Below are positions 21,601 through 61,799 of a stretch of DNA of 64,000 nucleotides, one piece after another. The DNA comes from a virus. Position 1 is the stretch's first letter, and the number at the start of each line of letters is the position of its first letter. The position numbers and the translations under genes are program-made. Where the stretch lies: positions 78,705-142,704 of IMG/VR virus record IMGVR_UViG_3300025009_000054, one strand, 5' to 3'. The notes under the pieces were generated by a model. That model was given only the letters and a program-made list of their open reading frames with translations. It searched no databases and was not told the origin of the DNA.

Positions 21601-22755
21601 TCATTTATTCTCATAACGAGCGTACGCTCTATTAAAATCTTTTAAACCTACAATTTGTAACCATTCATCGTGAAAGAAGTCTAGTGCTGCTCTAAATCCA
21701 CGGTTTTTATATGTATTTACTGCGGTACGTGAAATATCAAGCTTAGTTGCTATATCTGCAGGGCATAGTCCTTCTATGAGTAATGACATTACATCCTTTA
21801 CACGTCCATGTAATGTCATTATGAATTTATCACTTTCCATACCATCAAGGATATTAGCTACCCAATGATCAGTATCAACGCATTGAGTCATATCCTCCGC
21901 TATCGAACGTGATGAATCACTATCATCACCGTGGAGATTATCAGATGTTGATGTTTCTATGGTACTTACATGGGTGGAACCACACGATCTACATACTGGC
22001 TTACGGCCAACAGTCAGACGTTTTACACGCGTCAATAGATGTCTATGGATTCCCCATCGATCTGGAAGGTATAGATGGTACATTGATTCGATGTGAGTGC
22101 GTTTCATTCTCTCTGCATACTGGATTTCAGCATCTTCCTCAGTTATTCCAGCAAGCATCATGCGGTTGATTATAAAACCTTTATAAGTGGTGCAATCTTC
22201 AACTATCATGTCTATGTACGCTCGATAGTCCTTCATGCAATAAAAGAATCTATTAAGACTCTTTGCAGTTCTACATGCGGGTTCGTCATTATGATGTGTA
22301 CGAGCGGGAACAGTCTTCTTTATCATCGCCCCTTTATCATCAGCAATAAATGTCGATACGCAATAGTTACATTCATTGTATGGGTGTGGGCATGAATACA
22401 TATTACCAGTATATGTAATCCGTTGTCTATGGCTACATTCGCGGCATATCTGTTCAGTACCAGCCTTTATCTTTACCCCAATATCAAACGCAAGAAATCT
22501 ACTTCTAGCCTGTGATATTAAGTATTTTACTGGGTCACCACGATCAAGATTAACTGTTGGTAATACTTCGAGTACGCGTTCTAAGAATAATGGTCTTAGA
22601 TCATCACTATCAATAATTCTATTCCTACCAACATATCTGGCAGTAATACCTGGCGCTATATCCCTATCGACTTCTCGTATGAAATCATTGAGATAGGAAC
22701 TGTTCGTCGGGATTGACTGCTGTGCACGAGCAATTGCTTCCCTGGTTATAGGCAC
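21601..22755 (-). CDS. Sigma-70-family-like transcription factor with zinc ribbons
   Basis: 384 residues from GTG 22755. The first about 95 residues are helical with an RSRFLAFDIG segment as in region-2-like sigma helices. Next come a zinc-ribbon-like cluster (CRECSHRQR...CPHPYNECNYC), a helical middle, and a second CRSCG pair. The C-terminus is a sigma region-4-like helix-turn-helix, LHGRVKDVMSLLIEGLCPADIATKLDISRTAVNTYKNRG. Such layouts occur in phage late or middle sigma factors. A GGCACC-N17-CGTCTG element lies 50-80 bases upstream, and two near-identical elements head other operons, so I infer it directs a phage regulon and its own expression. Confidence 0.7.
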   Translation of the reverse strand: MPITREAIARAQQSIPTNSSYLNDFIREVDRDIAPGITARYVGRNRIIDSDDLRPLFLERVLEVLPTVNLDRGDPVKYLISQARSRFLAFDIGVKIKAGTEQICRECSHRQRITYTGNMYSCPHPYNECNYCVSTFIADDKGAMIKKTVPARTHHNDEPACRTAKSLNRFFYCMKDYRAYIDMIVEDCTTYKGFIINRMMLAGITEEDAEIQYAERMKRTHIESMYHLYLPDRWGIHRHLLTRVKRLTVGRKPVCRSCGSTHVSTIETSTSDNLHGDDSDSSRSIAEDMTQCVDTDHWVANILDGMESDKFIMTLHGRVKDVMSLLIEGLCPADIATKLDISRTAVNTYKNRGFRAALDFFHDEWLQIVGLKDFNRAYARYENK

Positions 22756-23058
22756 CTAGATTATCCTCCTATTCAAATGTGAGACTTCTTCCGCCTCCAA
22801 AAGTGCAGACGTGCATAGATTCGTGAGTGGTGCCAATCTGTGCTTAAGTTTGTGACGATTGTATATTTAAATACCAACTGACTCCGATGGCACTTCAGAT
22901 TGCTGTAGTAGTTCGCAGTAAAGAGGAGTAAGCGCGGTCCGGAATCATTCTATCTATATCAATAAGATTTAACTCAGATATCTAATACTCATCACTTTAT
23001 TTGATATATTGTCTTTCGACAGGCACATTTCCCAATAAGAACGGGACCGATAAAAGAT
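22756..23058. other. Intergenic region of about 300 bases upstream of the sigma-like gene
   Basis: No convincing gene on either strand. It holds the conserved promoter-like element at 22806-22834 near the sigma-like start. The upstream half is AT-rich. A possible long-range CGGTCC/GGACCG pairing and an AAAGAGGAGT stretch recall the 40.4-40.5 kb gap. Confidence 0.5.
22806..22834 (-). promoter_or_regulatory. Putative phage promoter, copy 1 (sigma-like gene and metabolic operon)
   Basis: On the minus strand GGCACC, 17 bases, CGTCTG, then CACTTTTGGAGG. The two blocks and the spacing recur at 40.4 and 61.8 kb. The form resembles ECF-type promoters with a -10 like CGTCTA. About 50 bases upstream of the GTG start. 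Confidence 0.6.
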
Positions 23059-25793: not shown

Positions 25794-27146
25794 TTAACTA
25801 ATTATCATAATAAGTCCTACCACTACACTTGTAACTGTAGACGAACTATCAACAATAAATTCAAGCACATCCCCTGCCGATACAGCGATTGATAACCCAG
25901 TTGCTTCATTTTTTTGTGCAGTAGACAATGTAGGTTTACCACTTGCAAATAATGTGGCATTTGTCGGATAACCAGCATACGTCGAAGCGTGAACATCCAC
26001 AACTATACTTCCGCTTTGATCTGCAAATATAGTCCAACCAGTAATAGTACCAGCATAAGGTATACTAATAAAACCCTTACTACCTGTGGTAATTGCTACA
26101 CCACCGCCATTAATAACATATGGAACACCTCTAATTTGCATATTATCAGTCGGCGTGTAGGTTGTTCCGTCAGTACCAGCGACGCCTTGTATTCCCTGTT
26201 CTCCTTGTATACCTTGAATACCCTGTTCTCCTTGAATACCCTGTTCTCCTTGTGGTCCTTGTGGTGCTGAGAATTCTAACCAATTAGTAGGGTCTTCTTT
26301 AGGTGCATTGATATCTTCGTTTATTATATTCTGACAAAAGTATATACTATTAATGCCAGTAAAGTCAGATGATTCCGCCAATACATAATCACCAACAACA
26401 TATGAATCACCGTATACCCATTCACCTTTATATATAAGCGATTCTCCATCTACGCCTTGTATGCCCTGCTCACCTTGTATACCCTGTATACCAGTATCGC
26501 CTTTCGCACCTCTCGGTGCGCTAAATTCTAACCAATTTGTAGAGTCTTCTTTCGGTGCAACAATATCGTTAATTAAAATATCTTGGCAAAAGTATATTGA
26601 ATTATAACCAAGAGCGGTAGAAGATTCGGCAATTACATAATCACCAGAATCATAGTCACTGCCTGATAGCCATTCACCTTTATATATGAGTGATTGCCCA
26701 TCTGCTCCAGCCGCTCCAGCCGCTCCAGGTTCACCAGGTACTCCAGCCGCTCCAGGCTCCCCAGGTACTCCAGGTACTCCAGCCGCTCCTTGTGACAATG
26801 GTACCAAGTAAATAGAATCACCAATAATTAGTGTGTTACCTGTTGGTATAGAGATATTATTACAAATACAATATCTATCACTTCCATTCGCAACAGCAAC
26901 ATACACTACGACAGAATCAGTATCTAGATTAACAATTTTTACATCCTTAATCATTCTAACTGTACCAGCCACAGGTGTTGTTGCTGCAACCACTTCTGTT
27001 GCATTATTCAATGTGCCATAAATACTGCCAGGTGTAAACCCACTTGCATTATTATCACCATATGTTGTTGAAAATTGGGGTTGATTTTCTGACACATTAC
27101 CACCCAATTTTATCACTAATGTATTGCCATGAATTAAATTAATCAA
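25794..27146 (-). CDS. Collagen-like tail fibre with two repeated binding-like modules
   Basis: 450 residues, TTG start with AGGA seven bases upstream. The N-terminal head (about 1-115) is followed by alternating collagen-like Gly-X-Y stretches and two copies of a module of about 75 residues. Each copy starts SLIYKGEW, contains GDYV(I/L)AESS and NSIYFCQ, and ends NWLEFSAP. The modules resemble the YKGxW...YxxGDxV pattern of carbohydrate-binding domains. A beta-rich C-terminal domain (about 330-450) ends the chain. It is probably a trimeric fibre that contacts the host surface. Confidence 0.8.
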   Translation of the reverse strand: MINLIHGNTLVIKLGGNVSENQPQFSTTYGDNNASGFTPGSIYGTLNNATEVVAATTPVAGTVRMIKDVKIVNLDTDSVVVYVAVANGSDRYCICNNISIPTGNTLIIGDSIYLVPLSQGAAGVPGVPGEPGAAGVPGEPGAAGAAGADGQSLIYKGEWLSGSDYDSGDYVIAESSTALGYNSIYFCQDILINDIVAPKEDSTNWLEFSAPRGAKGDTGIQGIQGEQGIQGVDGESLIYKGEWVYGDSYVVGDYVLAESSDFTGINSIYFCQNIINEDINAPKEDPTNWLEFSAPQGPQGEQGIQGEQGIQGIQGEQGIQGVAGTDGTTYTPTDNMQIRGVPYVINGGGVAITTGSKGFISIPYAGTITGWTIFADQSGSIVVDVHASTYAGYPTNATLFASGKPTLSTAQKNEATGLSIAVSAGDVLEFIVDSSSTVTSVVVGLIMIIS

Positions 27147-27176
27147 TGTATTATCCTAATCTAATTTTCTATATGG

Positions 27177-29009
27177 TTATAAAAACCACGCAAGAGCAGA
27201 TATGCCATTTGTAATGCCCTGTGTACCTTGATACCCTTGATATCCTTGTACCCCTTGATATCCTTGCACACCACGCAATCCCTGATAGCCCTGATTACCT
27301 TGTACACCCTGGTAGCCCTGATTACCTTGTACACCCTGGTAGCCCTGATTACCAGTTTCTCCCTGCTGACCAATAACACCTTGGTCACCCTGTACACCTT
27401 GGTCACCCTGTACACCTTGGGGGCCATTAGGCTCACCCTGCGGACCCTGTATTGAATCACCCTGAAATCCCTGATCACCTTGTGTTCCCTGATCACCTTG
27501 TGTTCCCTGAAATCCCTGATCACCTTGTGTGCCCTGAAATCCCTGATCACCTTGTAGTCCAACATACCCCTGGTCGCCTTGTGCACCCTGGTCGCCTTGT
27601 GCACCCTGGTCGCCTTGATCACCTTGTGCACCTTGGGGGCCATTAGGCTCACCCTGCGGACCCTGAGGTCCAATCCCACCAAAGTCTCCTTGTACGCCCT
27701 GGCTACCTTGTACGCCCTGGCTACCTTGGTATCCATTATTACCTTGTACACCCTGTACACCTTGATTGCCCTGTACACCTTGATCACCCTGAAATCCCTG
27801 AAATCCCTGATCACCCTGAAATCCCTGATCACCCTGAAATCCCTGAGGACCACCAGGATCACCTTGTAAACCCTGAGGACCACCAGGATCACCTTGTAAA
27901 CCCTGAGGACCTTGAGGACCATCGATGCCTTGATACCCCTGGTCACCATTTATACCTTGGGGTCCACTTGTCCCTTGTGGACCCTGGACACCATCGTTTC
28001 CTTGTGGACCCTGGACACCATCATTTCCTTGAACTCCAATACTACCCTGTACACCCTGTGGACCACCGTACGCACCCTGGTATCCCTGAAGTCCACGTAC
28101 ACCCTGGTATCCCTGTGCACCTTGATATCCCTGGTACCCTTGGTATCCACGCACACCTTGTGTACCCTGTGTACCTTGTGTACCCTGTGTACCTTGTTCG
28201 CCTTGTCCACCACGAAGTCCTATGCCAGTATCACCCTGAGCACCCTGAGGACCTTGTATTCCCTGTGGAGTGGCATTTTTAAATAATTTCAGTGTACCAT
28301 CATATACAAGTGATTGACCATTTGTAGGCGTGGTCACCTGAATTCCAGCTAACGTAGTGATATTGATAGACTTGGGAACAATCTTGTCAGTTGTAATAGT
28401 ATTAGCAGCAATCTTAGATCCAGTAACTGTCAAATCTGATAGATGCCATCCATATACTGAACCAGGTGGATGGTCAATAATCGATTTTCGTCTATGTGAT
28501 ACCATACCACGCGTATAATTAATATTGGGAACTGAATCCTCAACACTATTAAACGCTACCATATTTGATGTCGCTACAGCTTTTGCTAGTAATACACACC
28601 CAGGCACAACATTGCCGGTATTATTTGTATATCCTAACCAATCCCCATTAGTAGTAGAAGATTGTGTAGAACTCTCAACTATCTTGGCATATAGATACGT
28701 AGTGGTACTTAATGGTATTTCCCATCCGTCTCTTTCTACAGAATTATATATGTATACACCATCAGCTATAGCATCTAGCGATTGTATACGTATTTTCATC
28801 GCGGTACCATCACTATTGCCACCAAAATATAAATTACCCATGGCGATGATAGCACTGGAGCTAGATGTAAAATTACACATACTCCTTATCGATAGAGATA
28901 AGTGCGAGTCTATAATTTTCGATATTCTTTGTTCTTCAGACTCACTACTAAGGTCACCATTAGACCAAATTGGAATTTTTAGTTTTAATGTTTTATTACT
29001 ATATGACAT
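27177..29009 (-). CDS. Long collagen-like tail fibre
   Basis: About 610 residues from ATG 29009, which overlaps the previous stop as TAATG. The N-terminal about 245 residues are a folded, probably virion-attached part ([11 protein letters not shown]-type beta strands). About 355 residues of uninterrupted Gly-X-Y repeats follow, mostly GYQG, GPQG, GVQG and GDQG, then a short hydrophobic end. Gln in the third position is typical of phage and bacterial collagen-like proteins. The reading frame is intact through the whole repeat. Role: fibre, likely trimeric. Confidence 0.82.
27204..28272 (-). repeat. Collagen-like Gly-X-Y coding repeat
   Basis: Tandem 9-base-period repeats with local higher-order copies of 27 to 36 bases, coding the collagen-like rod of the fibre. 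Such repeats change length by recombination. They produce long false frames on both strands, which are not genes. Confidence 0.85.
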
Positions 29010-29436: not shown

Positions 29437-31848
29437 CTAATATATGGGATCATACGAATATATGGGGTCAACCCATTCGCCATCAATACTGTGCGTATAT
29501 TCTTTAGATTCAGCATTAGATAAATCGTACGATATGCTAATGATGCGGAATCTAGGATCACTAATTACACTTCCTATACCATCATATGCACCATTAGTAA
29601 TTGGTGTATCTATGCGGGCAATGTAATACGGAAAGTACACACCGCCAATTATGGAGAGTCCAGTCATAGGTCTTGGCCTAGTGGCACGCGAGAAGATATT
29701 GTGTGCTATATTACTAGTAATCTCTGGTGATATAAATTGCACATTTTTCATTATGTGCCACCTATACCACGGCATATAATTAGATACTGATGCATCCGAT
29801 AAATTCGCCTTCACTATAGACATAATAGGAGTGATGTGCTGGAAATCCAATCCTTGTACCATTATTGCATTTTTAACAAAACTGGTTGGATATTTTACCG
29901 TTATTGATTTAAGTAGCTCAGTATAATCAGTAACGGCATCCTCAGTTAGTGTACAATCGTACGCATTTGAATTTGTATTATCCCTATATAGCGGATTAGT
30001 ATCATCCTCAGGTGACTGATATATGAGATTGCCCCAATTATTTATAAACATCCATGACATGCTCCATGTGCGGATTTGTTGCATGCAATCATAAATAGGA
30101 ACTGAGTCTTCAAATTTGTACATTGGGTTATCAGTCCACGACATACTCGGAAGTATTTTATGATTACATTTCCCAATAGAGCATAATGAGTCAACTACGC
30201 CGTAGTGATCGCGTATCGTAGCATACTGACCAGTTACCTGGTCTTGCCATGCTAATAAGCCTGGTGCTAAATCTGATGGATCATCTTGGCACCCAGCATG
30301 ATATCCAAGTTGCAATATAGCCCACAACTCGCATGTTCCATCGAGTGGTGGTATAGCTATAGCTGGTGTGTCACGCAGTATCGCCGCAGCATCAAGTAAT
30401 TGCCAAGAAACATCGGCAGTAGAGTCATTATGTGTATATTCTGGCTCCCAAATCCAACCAGTATAGATACGCACAGTGTCATATCCTGCATATTCGCCGG
30501 TATCTTCATCAACAAAATGCCATCCAGCGTCTACATATATACGCTTTGCACCAGATAGTCCAGTAAATTTACCATCAGGGTTTTGATTACTAAATGTTAT
30601 TGTACCATTATATCCTTCGGTATCAGCCCTAATATTTAGACTTGTAACATCAGCGCCACTAAGTGATGGAAGCTCTGGCCATTCTATATCAATAAATTCA
30701 GGACCTTTATGTAGGTTTACTCCCCAAAACACCGGACTATATATACCAGATGTTGACATGCCCATATCCACTTGATAGTATACACAGGTTTTATCTCCAA
30801 CCATCGCATTTGTACCACTAGCTGAAAAAGTACCATCGCAATTAGATGAGTACACACCCCAGTCTGCATTCATATCAAAGTCTGATTGAGAAAAGTCATG
30901 TGGTATATATGGTGATAAGATTTGTCCACCAGTAACAAATCTTATAGGTAATAGTGCTATCATGGCGTCAGTGTTATACAGTTCAATTATCAATTTATAT
31001 GGTACGCTACTATTGATAGCTGGATAATCTAATCCGTCCTCAATAGCGGGGTACATATTATTTGTATTCCAATTATAATCAGTGCACTTATGGAACCACG
31101 TCGATTCCCTACTATGATCAAGACCATTTGATATCTCTATAGTATCCCATAGCGTACGAACCACTAATGTGTCGGTAATACCAACATTAAACATATCGGA
31201 TGGACCAACACTGACTTGATCGTATATACCAGTATCTCCATTAAACTGGAATAATGACGGTGCCTTTGTTTGGTATAATCCAATGCACCATTCGGATACT
31301 CCTCCGAAATATACATACACTACTGTGTTATCGGGATCTACACCACGCTGTGGCACAAATCTTTTAATCGACAATGCAAACCATTCACCCTCTTGAATAG
31401 TATAATCTGTGGATATATACCTATATCTATTACTGGATAGGGCATCATCATTAGTATCAGACGATATTATATGAGCGAATTGTGCACCATCACCAATAAC
31501 ACTTTTCCACGTACCATCACCATCCCATATAACAGTATCATCAGCATCAGCATTTGATGGTAAATCTATACCGCTAAATGTGTTGTCATATCCGTGTATA
31601 TACGATCTGAGATGCATACCACCAGTAATCGGATCATACTCAAAATCGCGTGTCATGTCTTTGTCGTTACAACTATCAAAGTATGCATTGTCATACGACA
31701 CAAAGAAGCCACCATCATCGCGACCTATAGATAGGCCATTCCATATGGATCCGGCAGCATCGTGCCTACTCATACCATTTCGGATGCATGCCTGTGCTGG
31801 ATTAGCCCAACCGACATCAACGCATGGAAGAGAACGTACTATACTCAT
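29437..31848 (-). CDS. Large tail protein, tail-tip/hub candidate
   Basis: 803 residues, start behind GGAG. Beta-rich throughout, rich in Asp, Trp and Tyr. The central part has ADVTSLNIRADTEGYNGTITFSNQNPDG and later WMFINNWGNLIYQSP, which recall tail hub proteins that follow the tape measure. Order in the module (tape measure, 1423-residue protein, this protein, fibres) fits a distal tail or hub role. No enzymatic motif seen. Confidence 0.6.
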   Translation of the reverse strand: MSIVRSLPCVDVGWANPAQACIRNGMSRHDAAGSIWNGLSIGRDDGGFFVSYDNAYFDSCNDKDMTRDFEYDPITGGMHLRSYIHGYDNTFSGIDLPSNADADDTVIWDGDGTWKSVIGDGAQFAHIISSDTNDDALSSNRYRYISTDYTIQEGEWFALSIKRFVPQRGVDPDNTVVYVYFGGVSEWCIGLYQTKAPSLFQFNGDTGIYDQVSVGPSDMFNVGITDTLVVRTLWDTIEISNGLDHSRESTWFHKCTDYNWNTNNMYPAIEDGLDYPAINSSVPYKLIIELYNTDAMIALLPIRFVTGGQILSPYIPHDFSQSDFDMNADWGVYSSNCDGTFSASGTNAMVGDKTCVYYQVDMGMSTSGIYSPVFWGVNLHKGPEFIDIEWPELPSLSGADVTSLNIRADTEGYNGTITFSNQNPDGKFTGLSGAKRIYVDAGWHFVDEDTGEYAGYDTVRIYTGWIWEPEYTHNDSTADVSWQLLDAAAILRDTPAIAIPPLDGTCELWAILQLGYHAGCQDDPSDLAPGLLAWQDQVTGQYATIRDHYGVVDSLCSIGKCNHKILPSMSWTDNPMYKFEDSVPIYDCMQQIRTWSMSWMFINNWGNLIYQSPEDDTNPLYRDNTNSNAYDCTLTEDAVTDYTELLKSITVKYPTSFVKNAIMVQGLDFQHITPIMSIVKANLSDASVSNYMPWYRWHIMKNVQFISPEITSNIAHNIFSRATRPRPMTGLSIIGGVYFPYYIARIDTPITNGAYDGIGSVISDPRFRIISISYDLSNAESKEYTHSIDGEWVDPIYSYDPIY

Positions 31849-31851
31849 ATC

Positions 31852-34800
31852 TTATGTACTCCATGAACTACCATTAGTGGAAATGCTAACGTGTGGAATT
31901 CCTTTATCATCATAGTAGGCAACAGATATTGTATTTGATGGTAATATCTGTATAGAAGGTGAGTGCATCATGGTTGGAGTGTGAACTTTACTATTAATAT
32001 TTACACCATATTCACTACGTGGCATATCCACGTACCATACCGTATTATCACTTCTAATAACATCAGCAATATGTATCGATCCACTATTAGTATCGACGGC
32101 AATATCAGGTGCAAGATCTGTTGTGCCAATTAGTACAGGTGTACTCCACGTAACACCACAGTCAGTACTGATAATTTTGTATAAATCGTGTGGAGCTTTA
32201 TTTACAACTTTTGCATATACAGCAATTATGACATTTTCTTTAGAATTATACCATAGTGATGGTTTATGTTTAGGTATATCACCACTCACTAAGGTTAGGT
32301 TATCAATACCATTGGCCATATTGTGATCAGAAATAGAAATGGTGCCCCAATACAGTTGATAAGTACTCTTACTGTATAGCATTAGCCCAATCTTAGCTCG
32401 ATCAGGTATATATACTGCACTAACACTATCGTACCCTTCGCACAATACCTTCTTATTAGTATTACGCCAAGTTGTTATGTTGTGGGAAGTATTATATGAA
32501 TATATCACTTCTCTGGTATCATAGTCTACGTATATTAGGCATTTACCGTTAGACCTATCAATCATAATATTTGGGGATATATACCTACTAGTATCAGCTA
32601 TGGTTGTATCTTCCTCTATTTTATCATGATCATCAATAATACATACAGATAGTCCGTCATCTTGATTGATGTAATATAACTCATTACGTCCATTAATCCT
32701 AACATGATCAATAGACATTCCTGACAATCTAGGTCTAAAGTTAATAACCATCCTAGTATTGTGCCTATCGAAGTGAGCTAATGGTTGTACAATTCTACCA
32801 TTACAGCTAATGCCATATGCTGCTGGTATCCTATCAAATTCATACTGCCCAGAGTTAAACGTTTCAGTATTACCAACACTACTACTATAATGTACTCCTG
32901 AGTAGTATGTGAGGGATTCACTAGTGTCTGGATTATATAGTCCCATATTCGGATCGTATAGAAAATCGTCAAATGCATCATCTGGGTACACTGGAATAAA
33001 GAAGTTACTCCAATTATCTACTGATATACCACTGATACTCTCAACAAACAATCCGCTACTAAATGATGGTGTAAGTACGCTTCCATCATCCATGTTTACG
33101 CCATTGTCGTATGCGTGCCCATATATCTTACCCTGTGCAACGCGTGTGAAGTAGAACTTTAATACCCCACCTGTAGATATGCCATCACCATATAATGCAT
33201 GGGCAGTTGCCGATGAGTATTTTGGTCTTACATACACACTCATACTTGTATCTATGGAAGCATCATGTGGCCCCATGCACATTTCAACCGGTGCAATATA
33301 GTTTGCGTTATCATATGAGATTGGATAACTATCATAGTAACTACCTAAAGCTTCTTCAGGATACGATCCATTTGATGGGTTAATATCAAATGACGATATT
33401 GGTAGTGTTGTTATGTTTTCAATACTACGTATATCATAATCATCAAAGGTTACTATGCCACTATATGGTATATAATATGAAACGGGATCATAATTAATGC
33501 CATCGCCATAGTCATTTCGATCAAGATATGTAATCGCGTACACACCAGATGTATCGGGTATATATGTATGAAAATCCCACCAATTTCTACCATCAACACA
33601 GACTGATATTGTAGGCATTGGCACCACGTCTCTACTACCGATAATATATTTATTAATATCAAAATCATCAAATTCTGTGGATATCGGATATGCCACACCG
33701 CTGACATCCACAGGTGCATTATTGTAATTATCGTTGTAATGGTATACACCGGACGAATCGATATTACTACAACCAGCAATGACGACATTATTATTCGACA
33801 CGGTACTACCAGTACCATTAACGTACTTACTAATATCACCAGTAGATTTAGCCACCATTGACTTAAAAGTATATTCCATGCCTGGGATGAGCCCATCGAA
33901 GAATATGCCGCTTATATGTCCAATACCCCACGACCATCGTAGGTAATCACCAGGCCAATTCTGATCATGCAGATTATTTGATACTGGAGCATCTTCCACA
34001 TATCTATTTAAAGGTCTAATTTGCTCAATCAATGATGTTATATAGTCAATATCATCTGGAGGATTTGATGGCATATACGTATCTATATTAATACCACTAC
34101 CACTAAATTCTAGATACCATGCCTTTGGTGTGTCTCCAGTACATAGTACTGGAGCATGCGCTTCATATATTGTACCACCACCATCAACTGGAAAATTATA
34201 CACATCGCCATTTATCGATGAGTAATATGTATAATATGGGTGATATTCTGTTGAATTAACCCATTTCATTTTCTCTTTATTATCAACTAGTGGTGGCCAT
34301 TTATATTTTAATCCAACATCAGTAGTTGATAACACACATGACGCCCCATCAGTAGCATCAACATCTAACTGCCACCATCTATGTGGTGGCATATATGTGG
34401 GGTCGAAAGTTCTATGTATTGACCCATGTGGACCAACATCATGCACATACAGACCACTACTTGTATAATCAACTACACAGTCAACACCTGACCATCCAGT
34501 TGAGAAATCTTCGATTGTAATATCACTAGTATCAACTTCGAGGTCGTACATGTGGAATGATTTAGGATACGATAGAAGTACGTCCTTATTTGACGGCATG
34601 TTATCAAATTGTTCAGGATTTAGAAGTTTTAATCCGTACGTATGTTTCCCTAGTGGTTCATAAACACCATTTTTTAACACACACCACCCTGGCTTATGTT
34701 CCCAACTATAGTCAACTTGATCAACATCGTTAGGGAATACACCATCATATCTGTATGTATCATCATCTTCACGATATACTAAGAATCCTGGTGTTACTGA

Positions 34801-36123
34801 TAACGTACGACCCTGATAATTTGGTCTTTTATCTACGTGTATTTGGAAATATGGTTCCGGAGTAAACACTGGAGATATATTACCACGCCAGTGTTTACTA
34901 TCAAAAATATCAATGTAATGTGGTGTAGCTTCCGGTGTACTACCATCTATATTCTTAAGGTCACCAATATATTGATACGACGGTGGTGGGGTTACTGGCC
35001 ATTTAAGATTTATACCAATTCCATTATGTTCAATATTGGTCCTTACAAAACGACTGTATTGGTACCAACCAGTACCCGTTTGCGTTCCATTTATCTTGTC
35101 CCACGATATATATTGGCGTGGTATATCCTGAGCATATGCTTCACAAGAAATGACACCATCAATGACTCTAGCATTACTATCCATGCCAGCCATTTCGTAT
35201 GTCTTACCAGCAGTATTCCATGAAACATTAGATGATGAGAAGTTAGCCGTAGCACTACTACCATAATTTCCGAGGTAATCATCAATATCTATGGTTATGG
35301 TCTCACCACCGATTATAAATCTATATAAATGTGTTTCAGCAAAATCACCGATTGGTATATAATCTAGATTTGGTGGAGGGTCACCAATTGGAAGACCTGG
35401 ACCATAAAAAGTTGGACCATCTCCATCGCTATTGACTTTATGAACATATGGTTCTCTATATATACCATTTACGTAGAAACAGAACGACACTCCTTGACCA
35501 CAATCTACCCCTATATCTACTTTTGGTGTTAAAATACTAGTAACATCCACAAATGGATTTACACTGGATCCACCGATATCCTTGAGCTTTGGCCCACTCA
35601 TAGTTAATATATATTTAGTAACACCACTTCCAAATGCAACATGTATCGGAATACCAATCGTAGCGTTGCTATTATATTCAGACCAGCTAATATAATTTAT
35701 AACTAGATCTTGCCAGTCTTTTAGTGCTGTCCAATATGAACCATAACCATCAGTAATCTCTGCTATATATTTATTAGGAAATGATATTGTACATGATTCA
35801 TATATAGTGCCTCCACCACCACTACCGTATAATGCCCTAGTATCCTCATCTAATCTTTTTTTATCATGATCACTTAGTCCATTGTAATATAAGTAATGTT
35901 CATAACTAGTATGTATGCTCAGGTAGTTTGTATTTATTACCGAGCTATATAATGAGTTTAGTAGGTTACAATTAAGGTATCCCCTACCACCAATACCACG
36001 CGTTACCCTACATACTATACCATGGCCAGCATCATAATAAGTTATTGTTTTATTTGGTGAGTAACTAGTATTAAATTCATAGCTGAACATAGAGCCTGTG
36101 CGCCCAGTTTCAAAATACGGCAT
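31852..36123 (-). CDS. Very large tail protein with C-terminal Asp-box (sialidase-like) segment
   Basis: 1423 residues. Its ATG overlaps the tape-measure stop (TAATG). The protein is Tyr/Ser/Gly/Asp-rich and beta-dominated. The C-terminal about 250 residues show beta-propeller-like repeats, including an Asp-box (STDCGVTWS, the S-x-D-x-G-x-T-W form) and degenerate relatives (ISTNGSSW). Asp-boxes occur in sialidases and other propeller proteins, and I do not see catalytic Arg triads. It is probably the central tail tip or receptor-binding protein. Confidence 0.6.
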   Translation of the reverse strand: MPYFETGRTGSMFSYEFNTSYSPNKTITYYDAGHGIVCRVTRGIGGRGYLNCNLLNSLYSSVINTNYLSIHTSYEHYLYYNGLSDHDKKRLDEDTRALYGSGGGGTIYESCTISFPNKYIAEITDGYGSYWTALKDWQDLVINYISWSEYNSNATIGIPIHVAFGSGVTKYILTMSGPKLKDIGGSSVNPFVDVTSILTPKVDIGVDCGQGVSFCFYVNGIYREPYVHKVNSDGDGPTFYGPGLPIGDPPPNLDYIPIGDFAETHLYRFIIGGETITIDIDDYLGNYGSSATANFSSSNVSWNTAGKTYEMAGMDSNARVIDGVISCEAYAQDIPRQYISWDKINGTQTGTGWYQYSRFVRTNIEHNGIGINLKWPVTPPPSYQYIGDLKNIDGSTPEATPHYIDIFDSKHWRGNISPVFTPEPYFQIHVDKRPNYQGRTLSVTPGFLVYREDDDTYRYDGVFPNDVDQVDYSWEHKPGWCVLKNGVYEPLGKHTYGLKLLNPEQFDNMPSNKDVLLSYPKSFHMYDLEVDTSDITIEDFSTGWSGVDCVVDYTSSGLYVHDVGPHGSIHRTFDPTYMPPHRWWQLDVDATDGASCVLSTTDVGLKYKWPPLVDNKEKMKWVNSTEYHPYYTYYSSINGDVYNFPVDGGGTIYEAHAPVLCTGDTPKAWYLEFSGSGINIDTYMPSNPPDDIDYITSLIEQIRPLNRYVEDAPVSNNLHDQNWPGDYLRWSWGIGHISGIFFDGLIPGMEYTFKSMVAKSTGDISKYVNGTGSTVSNNNVVIAGCSNIDSSGVYHYNDNYNNAPVDVSGVAYPISTEFDDFDINKYIIGSRDVVPMPTISVCVDGRNWWDFHTYIPDTSGVYAITYLDRNDYGDGINYDPVSYYIPYSGIVTFDDYDIRSIENITTLPISSFDINPSNGSYPEEALGSYYDSYPISYDNANYIAPVEMCMGPHDASIDTSMSVYVRPKYSSATAHALYGDGISTGGVLKFYFTRVAQGKIYGHAYDNGVNMDDGSVLTPSFSSGLFVESISGISVDNWSNFFIPVYPDDAFDDFLYDPNMGLYNPDTSESLTYYSGVHYSSSVGNTETFNSGQYEFDRIPAAYGISCNGRIVQPLAHFDRHNTRMVINFRPRLSGMSIDHVRINGRNELYYINQDDGLSVCIIDDHDKIEEDTTIADTSRYISPNIMIDRSNGKCLIYVDYDTREVIYSYNTSHNITTWRNTNKKVLCEGYDSVSAVYIPDRAKIGLMLYSKSTYQLYWGTISISDHNMANGIDNLTLVSGDIPKHKPSLWYNSKENVIIAVYAKVVNKAPHDLYKIISTDCGVTWSTPVLIGTTDLAPDIAVDTNSGSIHIADVIRSDNTVWYVDMPRSEYGVNINSKVHTPTMMHSPSIQILPSNTISVAYYDDKGIPHVSISTNGSSWST

Positions 36124-39100
36124 TACACTGTCCCACCTGCCACTTGATACCAGTAGGCTTTCATAGCCTCACTATCGAGTGTAAGCTTGCCAACCTTTTG
36201 GGAGCCTATCTGAACGTCTATGGAATTTGACCCAGATGGCATATGCTGTTGTGTATTACTAGATTGCCGACCTACCGGTGCAAGTTGCATCTGTAATTCG
36301 CCACCTTGATTTCTAATATTCTGCATTTCTTGAAAATCAGGTGTAGGCAGCGTTATTATAGTCTGAACATCGGGTTCATTGTAGGTATATCCACTATTAC
36401 GGTTATCACTTATTTCCTGAGACCCAGGTACCGACGACGGTATAGGCGCAGATTCAGTAGGAATAACATTGTTTATGTCCTGACCAAACATGTCATTAGC
36501 GGTATCTGTAGAGTATGCGGTGTTTCCAGGCTGTACATAACCATTAATGCCCCACGCTTGTCCTACAACGTCTCTAAATTTATCGACACCTTCTTTAAAC
36601 CTGTCAGCAGAATTCTTCTCTATATTTGCTGTAGATGCTTGTCCACTCAATAAATACTTAAACGAATCATTGAGTGTATCTGTTACTCCATTATCCTTCA
36701 TCATGCTAACAGCTTTATCATAGAAACCCTTGTGCATAGATGTGTATGAGCCGATACCTCCGCCATATTCATCCCTAGATTGTTTGTATGGGTAGAATCC
36801 GGAACCTAACATCTGCCAGTTAGACGCACCAACTGGCATAGTATATGTTCCACCATCAAGCTGCATACCTTGTTCGGTTATCATAGATGCCCACGATTGT
36901 CGAACATAATCTATTTGATTGTATAGACCCTCATATTCCCCACGAAGTTCCTTAACCCTATCTCGCCATTGCGATGACCCCTTTGCACCATTCTGCTCCA
37001 TCTCTTTCATGACATTCATGATCATGTGCATACGGCGATTCGTATCATCGATCTGTTCATACAGAATTGGCATCTGTTCGGTTGCTGGTCTATGTTGAAT
37101 TTGCATCACTCTAAGTTGAGTTTGTCTAAATTCAGATATATTCCGTTCAACATCCATATTATTTTGATATCGGAGGGCAATCTTTTGTCTCTCTATTCTG
37201 ATAAGGTCCTGCTCACCAGCATATATCTGCTGTCTGAGTGCAAATTCCTCAGCAGCAGTATGCACTTGTGATTTCATTACCTCAAGCTTCTCTTTATTAT
37301 TCTTAAGATCACGAGTAGTTAATGATACACCCTCATCAATCATGTCGATTTGCTTGCGTATATCGACACCAAATATTTCCGATGTACTAATGCGTTCCTG
37401 CAAAAGACCCTTCTCAAATCCAATCTTTTGCGAACGCATCTCATATGGCACGAGAGCAATACGAGCCTTTAGCTCAGCTTCCTCTCTATCTATCTGCAAT
37501 AATCTTTGCTTAAACTGAAATACTTCCTGAATACTGTATCCATACTCTTTCCAGTTCTTAATACGATCTTGAAGATCATTACGCTCTATTTGATTTATCG
37601 CTGACTGTTCCTTACCGTATTTAACGATATCTTGCCATGGTGCTGGTCCTTTACCGGAACCGTAATCTTCAAACGCTTTACCCCAGTCACGTGGGGCATT
37701 TTCAGATTTCCATTGTTTATATTGAGCCTCAGCACGTGGAAACTCAACCTTTTCAGTCATTTTCTGTTCGCGCTCAAGATTACGAATTTCCTTACCAAGT
37801 TGCACAATGTTCATGGACGTATGCATAATACGAGTATTCATCTCCATAAGTCCTTGAACGTCATCTGGACTTAATTTATGGGCTTCCTCACGCAGTAATG
37901 CAAGTTGTTGTTTTGCAATCTTAACCGAGGCAGATAAAGCATCGGATTGACCCTTCCAATCCCCACCAATGGTGCGCTCTCCACCAGGAATAGCCCATTT
38001 CATCTTGTAATCACCTTCGCCAACTTCACCTTTACCTGGCATACCAAGTTGAAATGTGCCACCACCGCGTCTAGCCATATCATACATAGAAGAAGCTACT
38101 TCAGATTGATTTTGTAATGTTGGGTATAGAATAGTTTTAAGGTTTTGTATCCATTCGACCATCATACGAGATTTATCAAAACCTTCTATGCTAATACGGT
38201 TGCCCCTTTTATTCATTTCTGCTACTGCAGCTTTATCATCCATTTGAATAGAATTGAATGATTTTTCATAATTCTTAATATCCGCACCAGCGATAGTTTT
38301 TTTCATGCGGTCAGCTACGGCTTTTAGGAGTTCAGGATCTTTATCACCTACCATTTTTAGTGGCACAGGTTGAAAATCTCCAGGTTGAGTGCGCCTGAAC
38401 CCAGGTTGAGGACGATCCTTACTAATACGCTCTCTTTCTTCTTCTGTTATTTGATGTTTAACCGATTCATATCGCGCCTTAAAATCGTTAGTTTTACTAG
38501 AATAGCTATCTCTTTCAATCTCACGAAATTTCTCAATTTGCGATTTGTACCACTCAAATTGTCCTTGTGGATCTTTTGGCATTGGCTTACTACCCAATTC
38601 ATTCAATTGGGCATATTTGTGAGCTATTCCCTGTTTAAATTCTTTTAATGCATCGCCAGCAGCTTTAGTTTGACTTCTAAAACTAACTATTCCGGCTATT
38701 AGCCCGCTAATAGCCCCAATAAGTAACCCCCAATATCCAGTGAACGAAAATGCTAGCGCTGTTGTTGTACCAACACCTACACCAACAGCAATAGCGCCAC
38801 CAACAGATGGCTTTTGTTTCTCTCTGGCATTTTGCATAACATATGAATTTGCCATATATGTAGCAAACCCAGCTAGTAATGCAGGACCCATTGACCTCAT
38901 AAATTGAGCTCCAGACTCACCCCTAGTCATACCGGTACCTAAGCGTCCACCAAACATGGTAAATGGGTCATTTGGATTTCGTATTGCAAAAAGCCCTCTC
39001 ATGCTACCTAATGCGACCCCAAGTTGTCCTGGTACTAATAATCCTGGTAAGGCTGACAATGCTGGTGCCATCCCAACTCTTCTTGCAGCCATAAGTCCAG

Positions 39101-39944
39101 CGGCAGTCATGCCACCATATGCTAATAAATGCCCACCACCTGTACCTACCCCACCACCAAGTTTACTAGAGAGTTGCCCGATTGCGACACCAACATTACG
39201 CATGTCACCCAAAAATGTAGTTATTGTCTTCTGCCATGCAAGTGACATGTCTATAATCGCATCATTGAAATCACGCTTTACTGACATCTGAAAATCTTGG
39301 AATTCACGTAGTTTCTTAAATTCAGGATCATCAACTTTTACTTTTGCTTCATTAAACCTACGGACCAATACAGCAGTTTCATAGTTGTATTGACGCATTA
39401 CTGATATGAAGTCCTGTCCACTCATGGCTCTTTTACCAGTAAATACGTCTTGCATTGTAGGCATTTGCTCAATAAGTTTATTGAACTGACCCATCATTTG
39501 TGGAGCTTGATCTCTGAATACATACGCCATTTTATTCATATAGTCGTCAAGGTCTTTATTATTAAGACTTCTGACATTAAGACGTACTCCAGCCACAGAT
39601 CTGGATAGCCCGTCAAGCATAGATATGATATCTGCACGTGGTATATTCATTGATTTTGATAGACTTACGACATTAACTTTAAGTCTATCGACTTCTTGTG
39701 CACTGATATGTAGGTTTTTCGACAAATTGTAGAGGCTTACTGTATATGATAGTACGCTTGCTTGCATAGCACCAAAATTAAGCGCACTTCCCATTTCACC
39801 TGACATGCCTTTTGCAGCGTCTGATACTGCATGCATAGATGTAGCTATACCAAGAACACTATCTGCCAGTATAGCACCAGGGCTAGCACCGGCACCAGCT
39901 AAAAGAGCTGCGCCAGCTAAATTTTCTCCTATGATGTTTGCCAT
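36123..39944 (-). CDS. Tape measure protein
   Basis: 1273 residues, ATG behind GAGAGG. It sets tail length and probably helps DNA entry. The N-terminal third has a glycine-rich hydrophobic start and several helices. Residues about 385-425 form a Gly/Ala-rich membrane-like segment (GVGTTTALAFSF...GLLIGAISGLIAGI). A long charged coiled-coil region (about 450-1010) follows, and the C-terminus is disordered. By the usual 1.5 angstrom per residue this predicts a tail near 190 nm (inference). It follows the chaperone and holin-like genes, the standard siphovirus order. Confidence 0.9.
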   Translation of the reverse strand: MANIIGENLAGAALLAGAGASPGAILADSVLGIATSMHAVSDAAKGMSGEMGSALNFGAMQASVLSYTVSLYNLSKNLHISAQEVDRLKVNVVSLSKSMNIPRADIISMLDGLSRSVAGVRLNVRSLNNKDLDDYMNKMAYVFRDQAPQMMGQFNKLIEQMPTMQDVFTGKRAMSGQDFISVMRQYNYETAVLVRRFNEAKVKVDDPEFKKLREFQDFQMSVKRDFNDAIIDMSLAWQKTITTFLGDMRNVGVAIGQLSSKLGGGVGTGGGHLLAYGGMTAAGLMAARRVGMAPALSALPGLLVPGQLGVALGSMRGLFAIRNPNDPFTMFGGRLGTGMTRGESGAQFMRSMGPALLAGFATYMANSYVMQNAREKQKPSVGGAIAVGVGVGTTTALAFSFTGYWGLLIGAISGLIAGIVSFRSQTKAAGDALKEFKQGIAHKYAQLNELGSKPMPKDPQGQFEWYKSQIEKFREIERDSYSSKTNDFKARYESVKHQITEEERERISKDRPQPGFRRTQPGDFQPVPLKMVGDKDPELLKAVADRMKKTIAGADIKNYEKSFNSIQMDDKAAVAEMNKRGNRISIEGFDKSRMMVEWIQNLKTILYPTLQNQSEVASSMYDMARRGGGTFQLGMPGKGEVGEGDYKMKWAIPGGERTIGGDWKGQSDALSASVKIAKQQLALLREEAHKLSPDDVQGLMEMNTRIMHTSMNIVQLGKEIRNLEREQKMTEKVEFPRAEAQYKQWKSENAPRDWGKAFEDYGSGKGPAPWQDIVKYGKEQSAINQIERNDLQDRIKNWKEYGYSIQEVFQFKQRLLQIDREEAELKARIALVPYEMRSQKIGFEKGLLQERISTSEIFGVDIRKQIDMIDEGVSLTTRDLKNNKEKLEVMKSQVHTAAEEFALRQQIYAGEQDLIRIERQKIALRYQNNMDVERNISEFRQTQLRVMQIQHRPATEQMPILYEQIDDTNRRMHMIMNVMKEMEQNGAKGSSQWRDRVKELRGEYEGLYNQIDYVRQSWASMITEQGMQLDGGTYTMPVGASNWQMLGSGFYPYKQSRDEYGGGIGSYTSMHKGFYDKAVSMMKDNGVTDTLNDSFKYLLSGQASTANIEKNSADRFKEGVDKFRDVVGQAWGINGYVQPGNTAYSTDTANDMFGQDINNVIPTESAPIPSSVPGSQEISDNRNSGYTYNEPDVQTIITLPTPDFQEMQNIRNQGGELQMQLAPVGRQSSNTQQHMPSGSNSIDVQIGSQKVGKLTLDSEAMKAYWYQVAGGTV

Positions 39945-40024: not shown

Positions 40025-40360
40025 CTAATACACACTACCTGGAGCATCAATGATTGCCTGTCCAGTCGATATTAGCCAATGGATAATAAGTAAGAATATA
40101 ATTACCAATATGATCTCAAAGAATGTCTGCGTGAGACAGCATCCACATCCACACCCAGTACCAGAATCTTCATTAGATGGATATCCATGGACGGTCTGAT
40201 TAGGCTCTTCATGATATGGGTTATGGTATTCCTTCCCATACATACCATCTGGAGGATCAATACCTGGATGATCGCGCATCCACTTGTCTACGGCTTTTTC
40301 TTGATCTCTCCTATAGCTATCTTTTAATAGTTTTGCTGGTATCAATGGCCACCACCACAT
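40025..40360 (-). CDS. Small membrane protein with Cys-rich patch
   Basis: 111 residues from ATG 40360 (GAGAGG upstream; the in-frame GTG at 40369 would touch that site). The N-terminus is MWWWPLIPAKLL, the middle polar, then SGTGCGCGCC just before a strong transmembrane helix (FFEIILVIIFLLIIHWLI). The cysteines beside the membrane could be acylated or redox-active. It is the first gene after promoter copy 2 and stands before the tape measure. It may be a lysis or tail-membrane protein. Confidence 0.65.
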   Translation of the reverse strand: MWWWPLIPAKLLKDSYRRDQEKAVDKWMRDHPGIDPPDGMYGKEYHNPYHEEPNQTVHGYPSNEDSGTGCGCGCCLTQTFFEIILVIIFLLIIHWLISTGQAIIDAPGSVY

Positions 40361-40405
40361 AATGTACACCTCTCACGTCAAAGTGATATTCCTACCTCAA
40401 AAGTG

Positions 40406-40434
40406 TAGACGCACGAAAAGGGATAGATGGTGTC
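40406..40434 (-). promoter_or_regulatory. Putative phage promoter, copy 2 (tape measure and tail operon)
   Basis: Minus strand GACACC, 17 bases, CGTCTA, then CACTTTTGAGG. Same spacing as copies 1 and 3. About 50-75 bases before the start of the small membrane protein gene. Confidence 0.6.
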
Positions 40435-40461
40435 AACATGGTTTCTACAATGGCCGAGACG

Positions 40462-40505
40462 ACCGTTCCCGCCCAAAGAGGAGTGCCTCTTTTATCAAGA
40501 ACGGT
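40462..40505. terminator. Compound hairpin in the gap after the holin-like gene
   Basis: Outer arms ACCGTTC (40462-40468) and GAACGGT (40499-40505) enclose an inner stem AAAGAGG (40475-40481) with CCTCTTT (40486-40492). On the minus strand no U-tract follows the outer stem, so termination is uncertain. It sits directly upstream of promoter copy 2 and may insulate the two operons. Confidence 0.4.
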
Positions 40506-40546
40506 TTATAAGACCCATGGGGCTTTTGGAATAACAAGAAACGCGT

Positions 40547-44993: not shown

Positions 44994-45457
44994 TTTGCTA
45001 CCTCTCCAGAGGGGCCAGCCGATGCCTGTATTGATGGTGTTACACCATGCGATCTAGCTTTTCTACGTTGTCCATCAATCACTGACTGACCGGTTATGTA
45101 TGGCAACATTATTTTGTCAAACTCACTAGCAAGGTCTACTGCGCGTTGCGACATTGCCGGATCTATTTCACCAAATATTGAACTCAATACCATCGACCCA
45201 GCTAGAATTGCGTTAGCTCTAACAATATCATAGTGATACTCAGTAGTACCATATGTATCTGTATTCCGCGATATTGTTTTACGTAAAGGTGTGAAATACA
45301 TGTGCGATAAAACGCCATTAATCCGGCCATACGCACTCTTAACATGCTTTTCAATATCAGCATCGGCTACTTCACCTTTTGCAGGGTTAGTACCAAATAC
45401 CACTATACGCCGTAGAACATCTTTCACATCCTGACTAGTACAATATAAATCACTCAC
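44990..45457 (-). CDS. Head-tail connector (gp6-like) protein
   Basis: 155 residues from GTG 45457 (GGAGGTGACATTTA upstream). Helical, with DLYCTSQDVKDVLRRI at the start and AYGRINGVLSHMYF, as in phage head-tail adaptor proteins of HK97-type systems. Found downstream of the capsid gene and upstream of the tail terminator-like gene. Confidence 0.65.
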   Translation of the reverse strand: MSDLYCTSQDVKDVLRRIVVFGTNPAKGEVADADIEKHVKSAYGRINGVLSHMYFTPLRKTISRNTDTYGTTEYHYDIVRANAILAGSMVLSSIFGEIDPAMSQRAVDLASEFDKIMLPYITGQSVIDGQRRKARSHGVTPSIQASAGPSGEVAK

Positions 45458-45484
45458 TAAATGTCACCTCCTAACGTACCAATA

Positions 45485-46639
45485 TTACGTCATAATTCCA
45501 GCGTATTGTCTCCAGTTTGTGCCAGTAACTCTACCAGGCACTCTGTACTTACCAGACGCTATGACATTAGGACTAACCAGACCTCTTCTCTTGGTTTCTT
45601 TGACCATTGCTTGAAAATCAACGTTTACCTGTGTATAAAGCGTTTGTACTAGTGGAATGGCATTGTCACCAGCCAGGATGAGCTGTGTATCCCTAAACAT
45701 TAAACCTTGTAGTATACGTCTAAGAGCTAATCTATATGCACCATATAGTATCGGAGCATCCCATGGTCCAGGTGTGGTTCCTAATGCGAAGTCCGTATAT
45801 GGTTTCTTAATATTTATCTCGTTTAATGATTGACTGATGAATTTACTAAGCGATTCATCAGTAAAGTACCTGAACGTATAATCGGCAGTAACACTACTAC
45901 CGTACGGTATACCCGACACACCAACTATGCCATTATTATAGTCAATATAATTCTTAGATGTTAAAATTATGCCATTATCGACAAAAAATTGTGGTGGTGT
46001 GTCTATACCCCAGTTTTTAAATGCAAATTTGAATAGTGAGCCACCAGTATTCATTTCAACGACACTCTCATTACTAACGTGTATGTGTTGAAATTCGAAT
46101 AAGAGGTCGTTCAATGTATCTAGTATGCCTACCATATATCTAGACACTGATAGACTATCGGATCCGAGTAAAGTATCACCATCGTACGCAGATATAGTAT
46201 AGTCGCCATCAGGAGCCGTAATCAATATCTGTCCTGAATACGATCCAAACTCGTCTGTTTCTATACTCCACGTGGACACCACAGTGGCACCCTTGAGGAG
46301 TTTTATCGAGATACTACCAATCACATATGTTCCGATAGAAATATCGACGGTGCCCCCAGATGATATATAATCCTGGTATACCTGCACTCCGTACTGGTTT
46401 ACTATTGATGCACTAAACGTTTGGGCTTTTCCACTAGATTCAAGTGGTCCGCCAGCGTTATCATATCTAGTATATATCTTGTACCAATTAGTGGGAGTAC
46501 CACTAGGATCAACGTATGACGTAACACCAGCACCTACAACATCATCGACGTCTTCATATGTGCCAAGCGAGTTGTTAGCGCGTGTTATATGATATCCATA
46601 CACACCGGACGCGGCAGTTTGTGACCACATTATATCCAT
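45485..46639 (-). CDS. Neck or decoration protein with FN3- and Ig-like domains
   Basis: 384 residues. The first about 75 residues look like fibronectin type III (YGYHITRANNSLGTYEDV...WYKIYTRYDNAGG). About 75-165 form an Ig/carboxypeptidase-regulatory-like sandwich (GSISIKLLKGATVVSTWSIETDEFGSYSG). The remaining 220 residues hold a third, alpha/beta part with LNDLLFEFQHIHVSN and a C-terminal QAMVKETKRRG helix. Located between capsid and connector. FN3 and Ig domains on phage virions often bind host surface sugars. Confidence 0.55.
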   Translation of the reverse strand: MDIMWSQTAASGVYGYHITRANNSLGTYEDVDDVVGAGVTSYVDPSGTPTNWYKIYTRYDNAGGPLESSGKAQTFSASIVNQYGVQVYQDYISSGGTVDISIGTYVIGSISIKLLKGATVVSTWSIETDEFGSYSGQILITAPDGDYTISAYDGDTLLGSDSLSVSRYMVGILDTLNDLLFEFQHIHVSNESVVEMNTGGSLFKFAFKNWGIDTPPQFFVDNGIILTSKNYIDYNNGIVGVSGIPYGSSVTADYTFRYFTDESLSKFISQSLNEINIKKPYTDFALGTTPGPWDAPILYGAYRLALRRILQGLMFRDTQLILAGDNAIPLVQTLYTQVNVDFQAMVKETKRRGLVSPNVIASGKYRVPGRVTGTNWRQYAGIMT

Positions 46640-46683
46640 GATATCACCACCTATTCAGTATCACAAACATAGTAGTATCTAAA

Positions 46684-46719
46684 CATAACAAAGGGGAAGG
46701 CATTTCTACCTTCCCCTAA
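46684..46719 (-). terminator. Rho-independent terminator after the capsid gene
   Basis: Stem AGGGGAAGG (46692-46700) with CCTTCCCCT (46709-46717), 8-base loop, followed on the minus strand by TTGTTATGTTT. Strong GC stem and U-rich tail. It follows the major capsid gene, where partial termination would set the high capsid level. Confidence 0.85.
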
Positions 46720-46766
46720 GTACCAGCCTAATAAAAGCTAGTCAATATAATAGCTAGTCGCCCAAC

Positions 46767-47678: not shown

Positions 47679-47707
47679 CTTAAGATTCACCTCCCCGTTC
47701 TAAATTA

Positions 47708-55914: not shown

Positions 55915-56033
55915 GCGGACCCTCCATATGAGAAAATTACCGCCTCAGCATGTGTTCACTTATACCGCACAGGGCAGCACACCAATATAATAGTCGAACA
56001 TACTCATTACAGGCGTTTGCCCTACTATGCATA

Positions 56034-56061
56034 TTGGATTATAAATCGATTATGTTATATT
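56034..56061 (+). promoter_or_regulatory. Possible sigma-70-like promoter for the plus-strand gene
   Basis: TTGGAT (weak -35), 16 bases, TATATT (-10), about 35 bases before the plus-strand ATG. The -10 match is good and the -35 poor. The only plus-strand gene must have its own promoter nearby. Confidence 0.35.
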
Positions 56062-56096
56062 GATAAATGGGATAAAGATTAGGGAGGACTGTAGAG

Positions 56097-60624: not shown

Positions 60625-61689
60625 CTACTTTTTAGCCTTGATATTGAGGATGTCAGCCAGTATGTTTTTAGCTTCTGCTGTCACCTCTTGGATTTGACCA
60701 TGTCTAACTCCAGCAGTTTGGAGTGCTGCTTGCATCAAGCTATCGTATTTATATCCCAAATTTGGGTGTATAACCTCTAGGAGTGGTATAAGACTAGACT
60801 CAACGAATGTCTTAGTCCTGCTTACCTTGTCCTGAAGGTGCAATGCTTCATCTTCATATAGGTCGCGCTCTTCCTTAAGGGTAGATACCTGATGCTGTAG
60901 ACTTGACACCTTATGTCTCATTATGATGAGCTCGTCACGATACTCATTGCGCTCAATCTCTAGTGGTCCATAGTTAACGATAACTTCACCAGCATTCTGG
61001 AATGCTTCACCCAGTGCCTTCATCGCAGCCTCAGATGCCGATTTACGTATTTCTTGCATTGTAGATGTTACGCCATCACGTATTTCTTTGACAATAGACG
61101 CAACATCTACGATTGGAGCTATTGGTATAGGGATCTTAAGTTCATCCAAGTAATCATCTTCCATCTCAGGGATAACCATGTCGTCACTTACGATAACCGC
61201 AAACTCTTCTGTAGTTGCGGCTTCTTCTTGTATAGATTCCACTATGCTACTAACGATAACCTCTGGCGATTCTGATTCAACGACGTCTACAGGTAATTCC
61301 TGTTCGACAATAGTATCCTCAACAACAACTGGTGTTGTATCATTAAGGTTCTTCGCTTTCTTCATGTCATCTAATACAGCCTTAACACGCGCCACATCAT
61401 CATGGAACGCCTCTGTCGGTCCGTACTTGTTGAGCATATATGTACCGCTGGTACGACCCACTGGTCGCTGTATGACAGCAATAATTCTGTTTCTCTCTAG
61501 TTCATTCAGTATAGGCTCGTAATCGCTACCCAAATGAGCGTCTGTGGCCATCCTCTTGATGCTCGTTCTGAATGGATCGCCTATCGACTTTCCCATCTTA
61601 CGCATTTCATCTGTGAATGCCGCGTGTAGTCGATCGACTTGATCCATACGAAAGTCCATCGCTCTTTTTGCCTTTTGAGTTTCTGTCAT
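60625..61689 (-). CDS. Coiled-coil protein with N-terminal winged-helix-like part
   Basis: 354 residues, ATG with GGAGG nine bases upstream. First about 95 residues resemble a winged helix (PILNELERNRIIAVIQRPVGRTSGTYMLNKYG). A long acidic, probably disordered stretch follows (about 115-215), then a coiled coil (ERNEYRDELIIMRHKVSSLQHQVSTLKEERDLYEDEALHLQDKV) and a helical end. First gene behind promoter copy 3. A second start (ATG 61703-61705 in another frame) follows its own GGAGG, possibly a leader peptide. DNA-binding or structural role uncertain. Confidence 0.65.
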   Translation of the reverse strand: MTETQKAKRAMDFRMDQVDRLHAAFTDEMRKMGKSIGDPFRTSIKRMATDAHLGSDYEPILNELERNRIIAVIQRPVGRTSGTYMLNKYGPTEAFHDDVARVKAVLDDMKKAKNLNDTTPVVVEDTIVEQELPVDVVESESPEVIVSSIVESIQEEAATTEEFAVIVSDDMVIPEMEDDYLDELKIPIPIAPIVDVASIVKEIRDGVTSTMQEIRKSASEAAMKALGEAFQNAGEVIVNYGPLEIERNEYRDELIIMRHKVSSLQHQVSTLKEERDLYEDEALHLQDKVSRTKTFVESSLIPLLEVIHPNLGYKYDSLMQAALQTAGVRHGQIQEVTAEAKNILADILNIKAKK

Positions 61690-61756
61690 TGTACCACGCC
61701 TCCATCTTGTAATATCCTCCTATCAAGGAGAAGAGCATGTTCGCCCCTCAAGAGTG

Positions 61757-61785
61757 TAGACGCGTGAAGAGAGCTGAGCGGTGCC
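61757..61785 (-). promoter_or_regulatory. Putative phage promoter, copy 3 (nucleotide/lysis operon)
   Basis: Minus strand GGCACC, 17 bases, CGTCTA, CACTCTTGAGG. About 70-95 bases before the coiled-coil protein gene. Same pattern as copies 1 and 2. Confidence 0.6.
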
Positions 61786-61799
61786 GATTCTGGCAGAGT

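Follow-up and report, generated by a model that had tools for sequence, protein, structure and literature searches.

Phage-encoded sigma factors such as T4 gp55 and SPO1 gp28/gp34 direct the host core RNA polymerase to phage promoters of the late or middle class. ECF sigma factors are encoded by phiEco32-like phages (PMC7881722); the promoters predicted for phage 7-11 are of the extended -10 type (PMC4331800), and phage ECF promoters have been described as being without a recognisable -35 (PMC5333181). CGTC at -13 to -10 is common in ECF promoters (PMC3397946), and a 17-bp spacer is optimal for ECF sigma-H (PMC6411747).

The window analysed here is a stretch of 64,000 nucleotides, positions 78705–142704 of a 142,704-base IMG/VR phage record, G000 (G000:C1:78705-142704), whose minus strand carries nearly all genes. 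Coordinates are those of the window unless given with the prefix G000 or as record coordinates. A preliminary description reported a promoter-like element with fixed spacing on the minus strand at 22806–22834, 40406–40434 and 61757–61785, and reading the sequence revealed all three sites as described. We propose that this element is probably the promoter of the phage's own regulon, read by host core RNA polymerase together with the ECF-type sigma domain of g113, a pairing that we infer from sequence.

Twenty-three copies of a two-block element

A search of the window returned exactly these three sites, in agreement with the earlier remark that no other copy was visible, and the whole-genome search that had been suggested, run on the record, added 20 sites outside the window. 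The 23 copies share the consensus ATTGGCACC[A/G]-N16-CGTCTACACTCTTGGAGG. An exact pattern search of the record yields 11 copies and none on the opposite strand, a search with up to three mismatches yields 13, and a looser tolerance about two dozen; the control pattern, read backwards, has no match in the record. In record coordinates, GGCACC starts at 675, 9152, 9565, 9654, 11290, 11885, 12420, 13559, 13641, 13723, 14314, 14613, 15740, 16945, 18208, 19558, 24729, 40105, 41611, 50385, 101538, 119138 and 140489. Sites 13559/13641/13723 and 9565/9654 are arranged in tandem, and site 41611, ahead of g110, was found later than the other 22. The contig may be incomplete, because the ORF behind site 675 runs off its end.

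A weight matrix of 44 columns, built from 22 copies, separates the sites from the remaining sequence. The full scan of the record identified 23 places at 27.6 to 59.7 bits, with a next-best score of -5.9 on the sites' strand and a best score of 1.7 bits on the other strand, and leave-one-out scores of the sites range from 14.7 to 57.3 bits. No score in 20 first-order Markov genomes exceeded 3.5 bits; together with the backwards-read control, this led us to reject a chance origin. The mean pairwise identity between sites is 70% for TTGGCACCR and 98% for CGTCTACACT, and drops to the random level outside the blocks (26% in the flanks, 28% downstream). A dispersed repeat or mobile element was rejected on the identity of the flanks, and the conserved blocks within random surroundings indicate that the sites are independently maintained and are not recent or dispersed-repeat copies.

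All 23 sites are intergenic and lie on the coding strand; occurrence at random places inside genes, which the preliminary description had named as evidence against a promoter, was thus not observed. One-by-one inspection of 22 sites placed them between genes, mostly just after a stop codon, and the gene calls that overlap sites are ORFs without an SD or have starts called too far upstream. An SD-preceded start codon follows 10–135 nt downstream of the predicted +1. Five small Ros/MucR-like C2H2 zinc-finger paralogs (g024, g036, g043, g044 and g049, at 9.2–19.5 kb; family matches below cut-off) sit in operons headed by the element.

The copies could alternatively be conserved elements of mRNA leaders or of mRNA processing, as a potential hairpin is found closely downstream of most sites. 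Its propensity (mean z -1.1) is, however, barely above that of the phage's other leaders (-0.7), RNAalifold found no consensus pair across sites, and a 17-base gap that is constant in length and variable in sequence agrees with DNA helical phasing. An RNA element, without conserved structure and with hairpins only slightly above other leaders, was rejected and is the least probable of all the readings considered.

Genes of other kinds were noted elsewhere in the record. A Gad1-like anti-Gabija protein is encoded at G000:35926-36858 (PF25705, E 2e-67), and several genes of the gene sets at 60–101 kb and 102–142 kb contain LAGLIDADG domains, making homing endonucleases or inteins likely.

Predicted promoter anatomy and the three window sites

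The preliminary description gave the blocks as (G/A)GCACC-like or GACACC, a gap of 17 bases and CGTCT(A/G). These forms hold, with the correction that the conserved second block is CGTCTACACT, longer than a hexamer. In that original frame, and on the minus strand, site 1 (22834-22806 and on) is GGCACC-N17-CGTCTG-CACTTTTGGAGG, site 2 (40434-40406) is GACACC-N17-CGTCTA-CACTTTTGAGG, and site 3 (61785-61757) is GGCACC-N17-CGTCTA-CACTCTTGAGG. The predicted promoter at site 1 (22802..22836, minus strand) consists of a -35 block TTGGCACC (22836-22829), a 17-bp spacer and a -10/discriminator CGTCTGCACT (22811-22802); its predicted +1 is the G at 22798, with the start codon 43 nt further, in the intergenic region 22756-23058. 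Predicted promoter 2 (40402..40436, minus strand) contains TTGACACC (40436-40429), a 17-bp spacer and CGTCTACACT (40411-40402), with a predicted +1 at G 40398 in the intergenic region 40361-40546. Predicted promoter 3 (61753..61787, minus strand) contains TCGGCACC (61787-61780), a 17-bp spacer and CGTCTACACT (61762-61753), with a predicted +1 at G 61749 in the intergenic region 61690-61799.

SD-preceded starts lie behind the three sites at 22755 (GTG), 40360 (ATG) and 61689 (ATG), respectively 51, 46 and 68 bases from the end of the -10 hexamer. According to the ORF list, the first gene behind site 1 is g174 (21601..22755, minus strand, 384 aa), and behind site 2 it is g186 (40025..40360, minus strand, 111 aa), which is followed by a tail module with long ORFs at 36123-39944, 31852-36123 and 29437-31848; tail-fibre and tail PHROG matches account for two members each of the gene set that holds this module. 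Site 3 precedes g213 (60625..61689, minus strand, 354 aa), for which no family was found. Two members of the gene set match PF01391, as collagen-repeat tail proteins whose place is probably 25797-29009. A long gap between minus-strand genes at 55915-56639 holds the sole plus-strand ORF that is both of good length and preceded by an SD (56097-56693, 198 aa).

Two features expected of an ECF promoter are found throughout. CGTC, the -10 hallmark, is invariant in 23 of 23 sites, and the spacer, expected to be rigid at 16–17 bp, measures 17 in every one; when spacers of 12–22 were tested, the best -35 match also fell at 17 in all sites. A third feature, an AAC-bearing -35, is missing: the consensus is GGCACC, with CAC, CCC or CGC where AAC is expected, which lowers but does not exclude ECF membership, because AAC is typical and not defining. 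Numbering CGTC as -13 to -10 by the Tt-RpoE1 promoter (PMC3397946) places the predicted +1 10 nt past CGTC, at a purine in all 22 tallied sites (G in 17, A in 5). At three sites (14613, 12420 and 11885), a GGAGG stands directly before the start codon and is able to serve as SD, and site 14613 has a second, later start that is also SD-preceded; at the other sites, a further SD comes after the initial GGAGG. The likeness to ECF-sigma promoters that the preliminary description had suggested is supported by where the sites lie and how they are oriented, by their invariant spacing and CGTC -10, and by the phage's ECF-type domain with DXXR, and the element would act as an ECF-type promoter in vivo.

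Such promoters need not be read by a phage factor, as CGTC ECF promoters are common in bacteria (PMC3397946) and a host ECF sigma could serve. However, 84,980 bacterial and archaeal genomes give one exact match, about the chance number, and a host regulon was rejected given that this single match lies within a 346-aa ORF. An ECF domain is encoded by the phage itself, and the ten-base second block is conserved far beyond the need of host ECF promoters; reading by a host ECF sigma is distinctly unlikely. The same nearly invariant block, with the conserved initial transcribed sequence, recalls the promoters of phage RNA polymerases and would suit an overlooked enzyme, for example of the single-subunit kind; the T7-type family search ran without a working positive control. 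Against such a polymerase, the layout, two blocks 17 bp apart, is of the sigma type, no RNA polymerase family appears among the Pfam matches listed (for one gene set, the best 25 of 54), and a search of the record for a multisubunit RNA polymerase beta subunit, in which controls were detected, gave no match. We regard this reading as highly improbable.

The g113 sigma domain and a proposed transcription programme

The preferred reader of the 23 sites is g113 (G000:41982-44444, 820 aa), whose residues about 513–700 form the only clear ECF-type sigma domain identified by Pfam and NCBIfam. The sigma-70 region 2 is of the ECF type and above the curated cut-off (PF04542, E 3e-15, 48.5 vs 24 bits), TIGR02937 sigma70-ECF scores 56.2 bits against a cut-off of 42.9, and the best solved-structure matches are to ECF sigma-H/sigma-E. 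Region 2.4 is KKDYLRKQ and includes DXXR (DYLR). The D of this motif recognises -12G of CGTC in Tt-RpoE1 (PMC3397946); E. coli sigma-E has N where g113 has this D. Residues about 660–740 (MPEHHRDAWLMY...MVADALGM...) appear by eye to be region 4-like with an insertion and have no family match, and an SH3-like tail, also seen by eye, closes the protein. With 820 aa, about 500 of them before the sigma domain, g113 exceeds the two-domain ECF sigma of about 190 aa, a typical size and not a strict definition. It adjoins head/packaging genes and the rest of the protein is of no assigned function, an unusual setting for a regulator.

Directly upstream of g114-g113 lies a sigma-70-type promoter of g114, TGGTATAAT (G000:44977-45006), with TTGACA-N18-TATAAT and an extended -10 TGG. 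It is the only 12/12 sigma-70 match in the record, where a Markov model expects 0.15 per strand. Site 50385 precedes g117-g116-g115, which continue into g114-g113, so feedback is possible. Among the head-module proteins, the tetrapeptide RTA[QS] recurs in g115, g117 and g120 (record coordinates 45063-47963, 49159-50286 and 52434-54041) and in g200 (window 48150-51638), and may be a maturation-protease site; KTAP occurs once in g113. An ART-PolyVal ADP-ribosyltransferase domain is encoded at G000:54061-55032, beside the terminase cluster.

In the programme that we propose, host sigma-A polymerase would transcribe g114-g113 from the TTGACA-N18-TATAAT promoter, presumably early in infection. The g113 ECF domain would then displace sigma-A and open the 23 CGTC promoters, each composed of a -35 block (A)TTGGCACC, 17 bp, a -10/discriminator CGTCTACACT and a CTTG/A whose purine is the predicted +1; transcripts would begin with GGAGG. 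These promoters would head small-gene operons, the Ros/MucR-like genes, the head operon g117-g113, as feedback, and the tail module.

Several findings count against the assignment to g113. The AAC usual in ECF promoters is missing from the -35; region 4, the expected -35 reader, has no family match and is apparently interrupted by an insertion; the sigma domain sits, as noted, in a setting unusual for a regulator; and the phage encodes two further sigma-like proteins, g126 and the weak candidate g174. Either of these could be the reader instead. The 255-aa g126 (G000:57815-58582), with an N-terminal zinc ribbon, has weak matches to sigma families of phages (phrog_351, E 2.5e-7; phrog_1025, E 7e-5) and a match to a protein of Bacillus phage vB_BpsS-140 that is annotated as a sigma-70 factor (26%, E 4e-6). 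The C-terminal HTH of g174 weakly resembles sigma-70 region 4 or LuxR (PF08281, E 0.0024; PF00196, E 1e-4; both below curated cut-off), and no relative of g174 was found among phage records. The combination of CGTC and a rigid 17-bp spacer is nevertheless ECF-like, and g113 has the only ECF-type domain with DXXR; by eye and without alignment, no DXXR is seen at the corresponding place in g126, and g174 has its own gene behind one of the sites. Reading by g126 or g174 is therefore unlikely. Speculatively, if real sigmas, the two would add later steps to a cascade. A fuller scheme, which we put forward as doubtful, is a phage sigma relay leading from a consensus host promoter to a large head-module protein with a fused ECF sigma and on to the 23 two-block promoters, one of them making sigma-like g174; virions may also carry the ECF sigma and bring it into the cell on infection.

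The conclusions on sigma and promoter rest on one genome, G000. In viral_contigs, no close relative was found for g113, terminase, g200 or DNA polymerase III alpha. In a terminase alignment with phage G, the highest identity to a relative was about 31%; among 12 such relatives tested, sequence comparison detected no g113 and the motif did not exceed control, and a relaxed motif scan of viral_contigs gave 9 single matches, none repeated within a contig. That no close relative was found showing sigma and promoter changing together also counts against the g113 model. If correct, reading by g113 would provide a near-complete, testable transcription programme from sequence alone, comprising a sigma, its promoters and the sigma's own promoter; the phage would have an ECF system whose promoter is complete in both blocks, and its sigma and promoter would make a strictly specific, orthogonal pair.

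Comparison with described sigma and promoter systems

T4 gp55 and SPO1 gp28/gp34 differ from the system proposed here in sigma type and promoter sequence, that of G000 being of the ECF type with CGTC. Bacterial CGTC-type ECF promoters, exemplified by Tt-RpoE1 (tGTTAC-N16-CGTC), share CGTC at -13 to -10, a near-fixed spacer and DXXR in region 2.4 of the sigma (PMC3397946). In contrast to the Tt-RpoE1 type, the G000 -35 is GGCACC and not an AAC-bearing block, conservation extends through ACACTCTTGGAGG to about +5, and the element would form a phage-carried regulon of 23 sites.

The phiEco32-like phages (phiEco32, 7-11 and Privateer) likewise combine a phage ECF-type sigma with a low-copy, well-conserved element ahead of genes and redirect the host core polymerase, as would be the case here (PMC4331800, PMC7881722). 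Their promoters are of the extended -10 type (TGTGATGTTATA in 7-11) with no recognisable -35 (PMC5333181), whereas the G000 element, present in 23 copies, combines CGTC with a clear -35 at a rigid spacing of 17 bp. Because its -35 block is clear and 70% identical between sites, the G000 element is not a phiEco32-type promoter. A limited literature search found no published description of such a two-block phage ECF system. Phage ECF sigma systems of the phiEco32 kind are already known, and we rate as new here the two-block promoter of the bacterial CGTC type.
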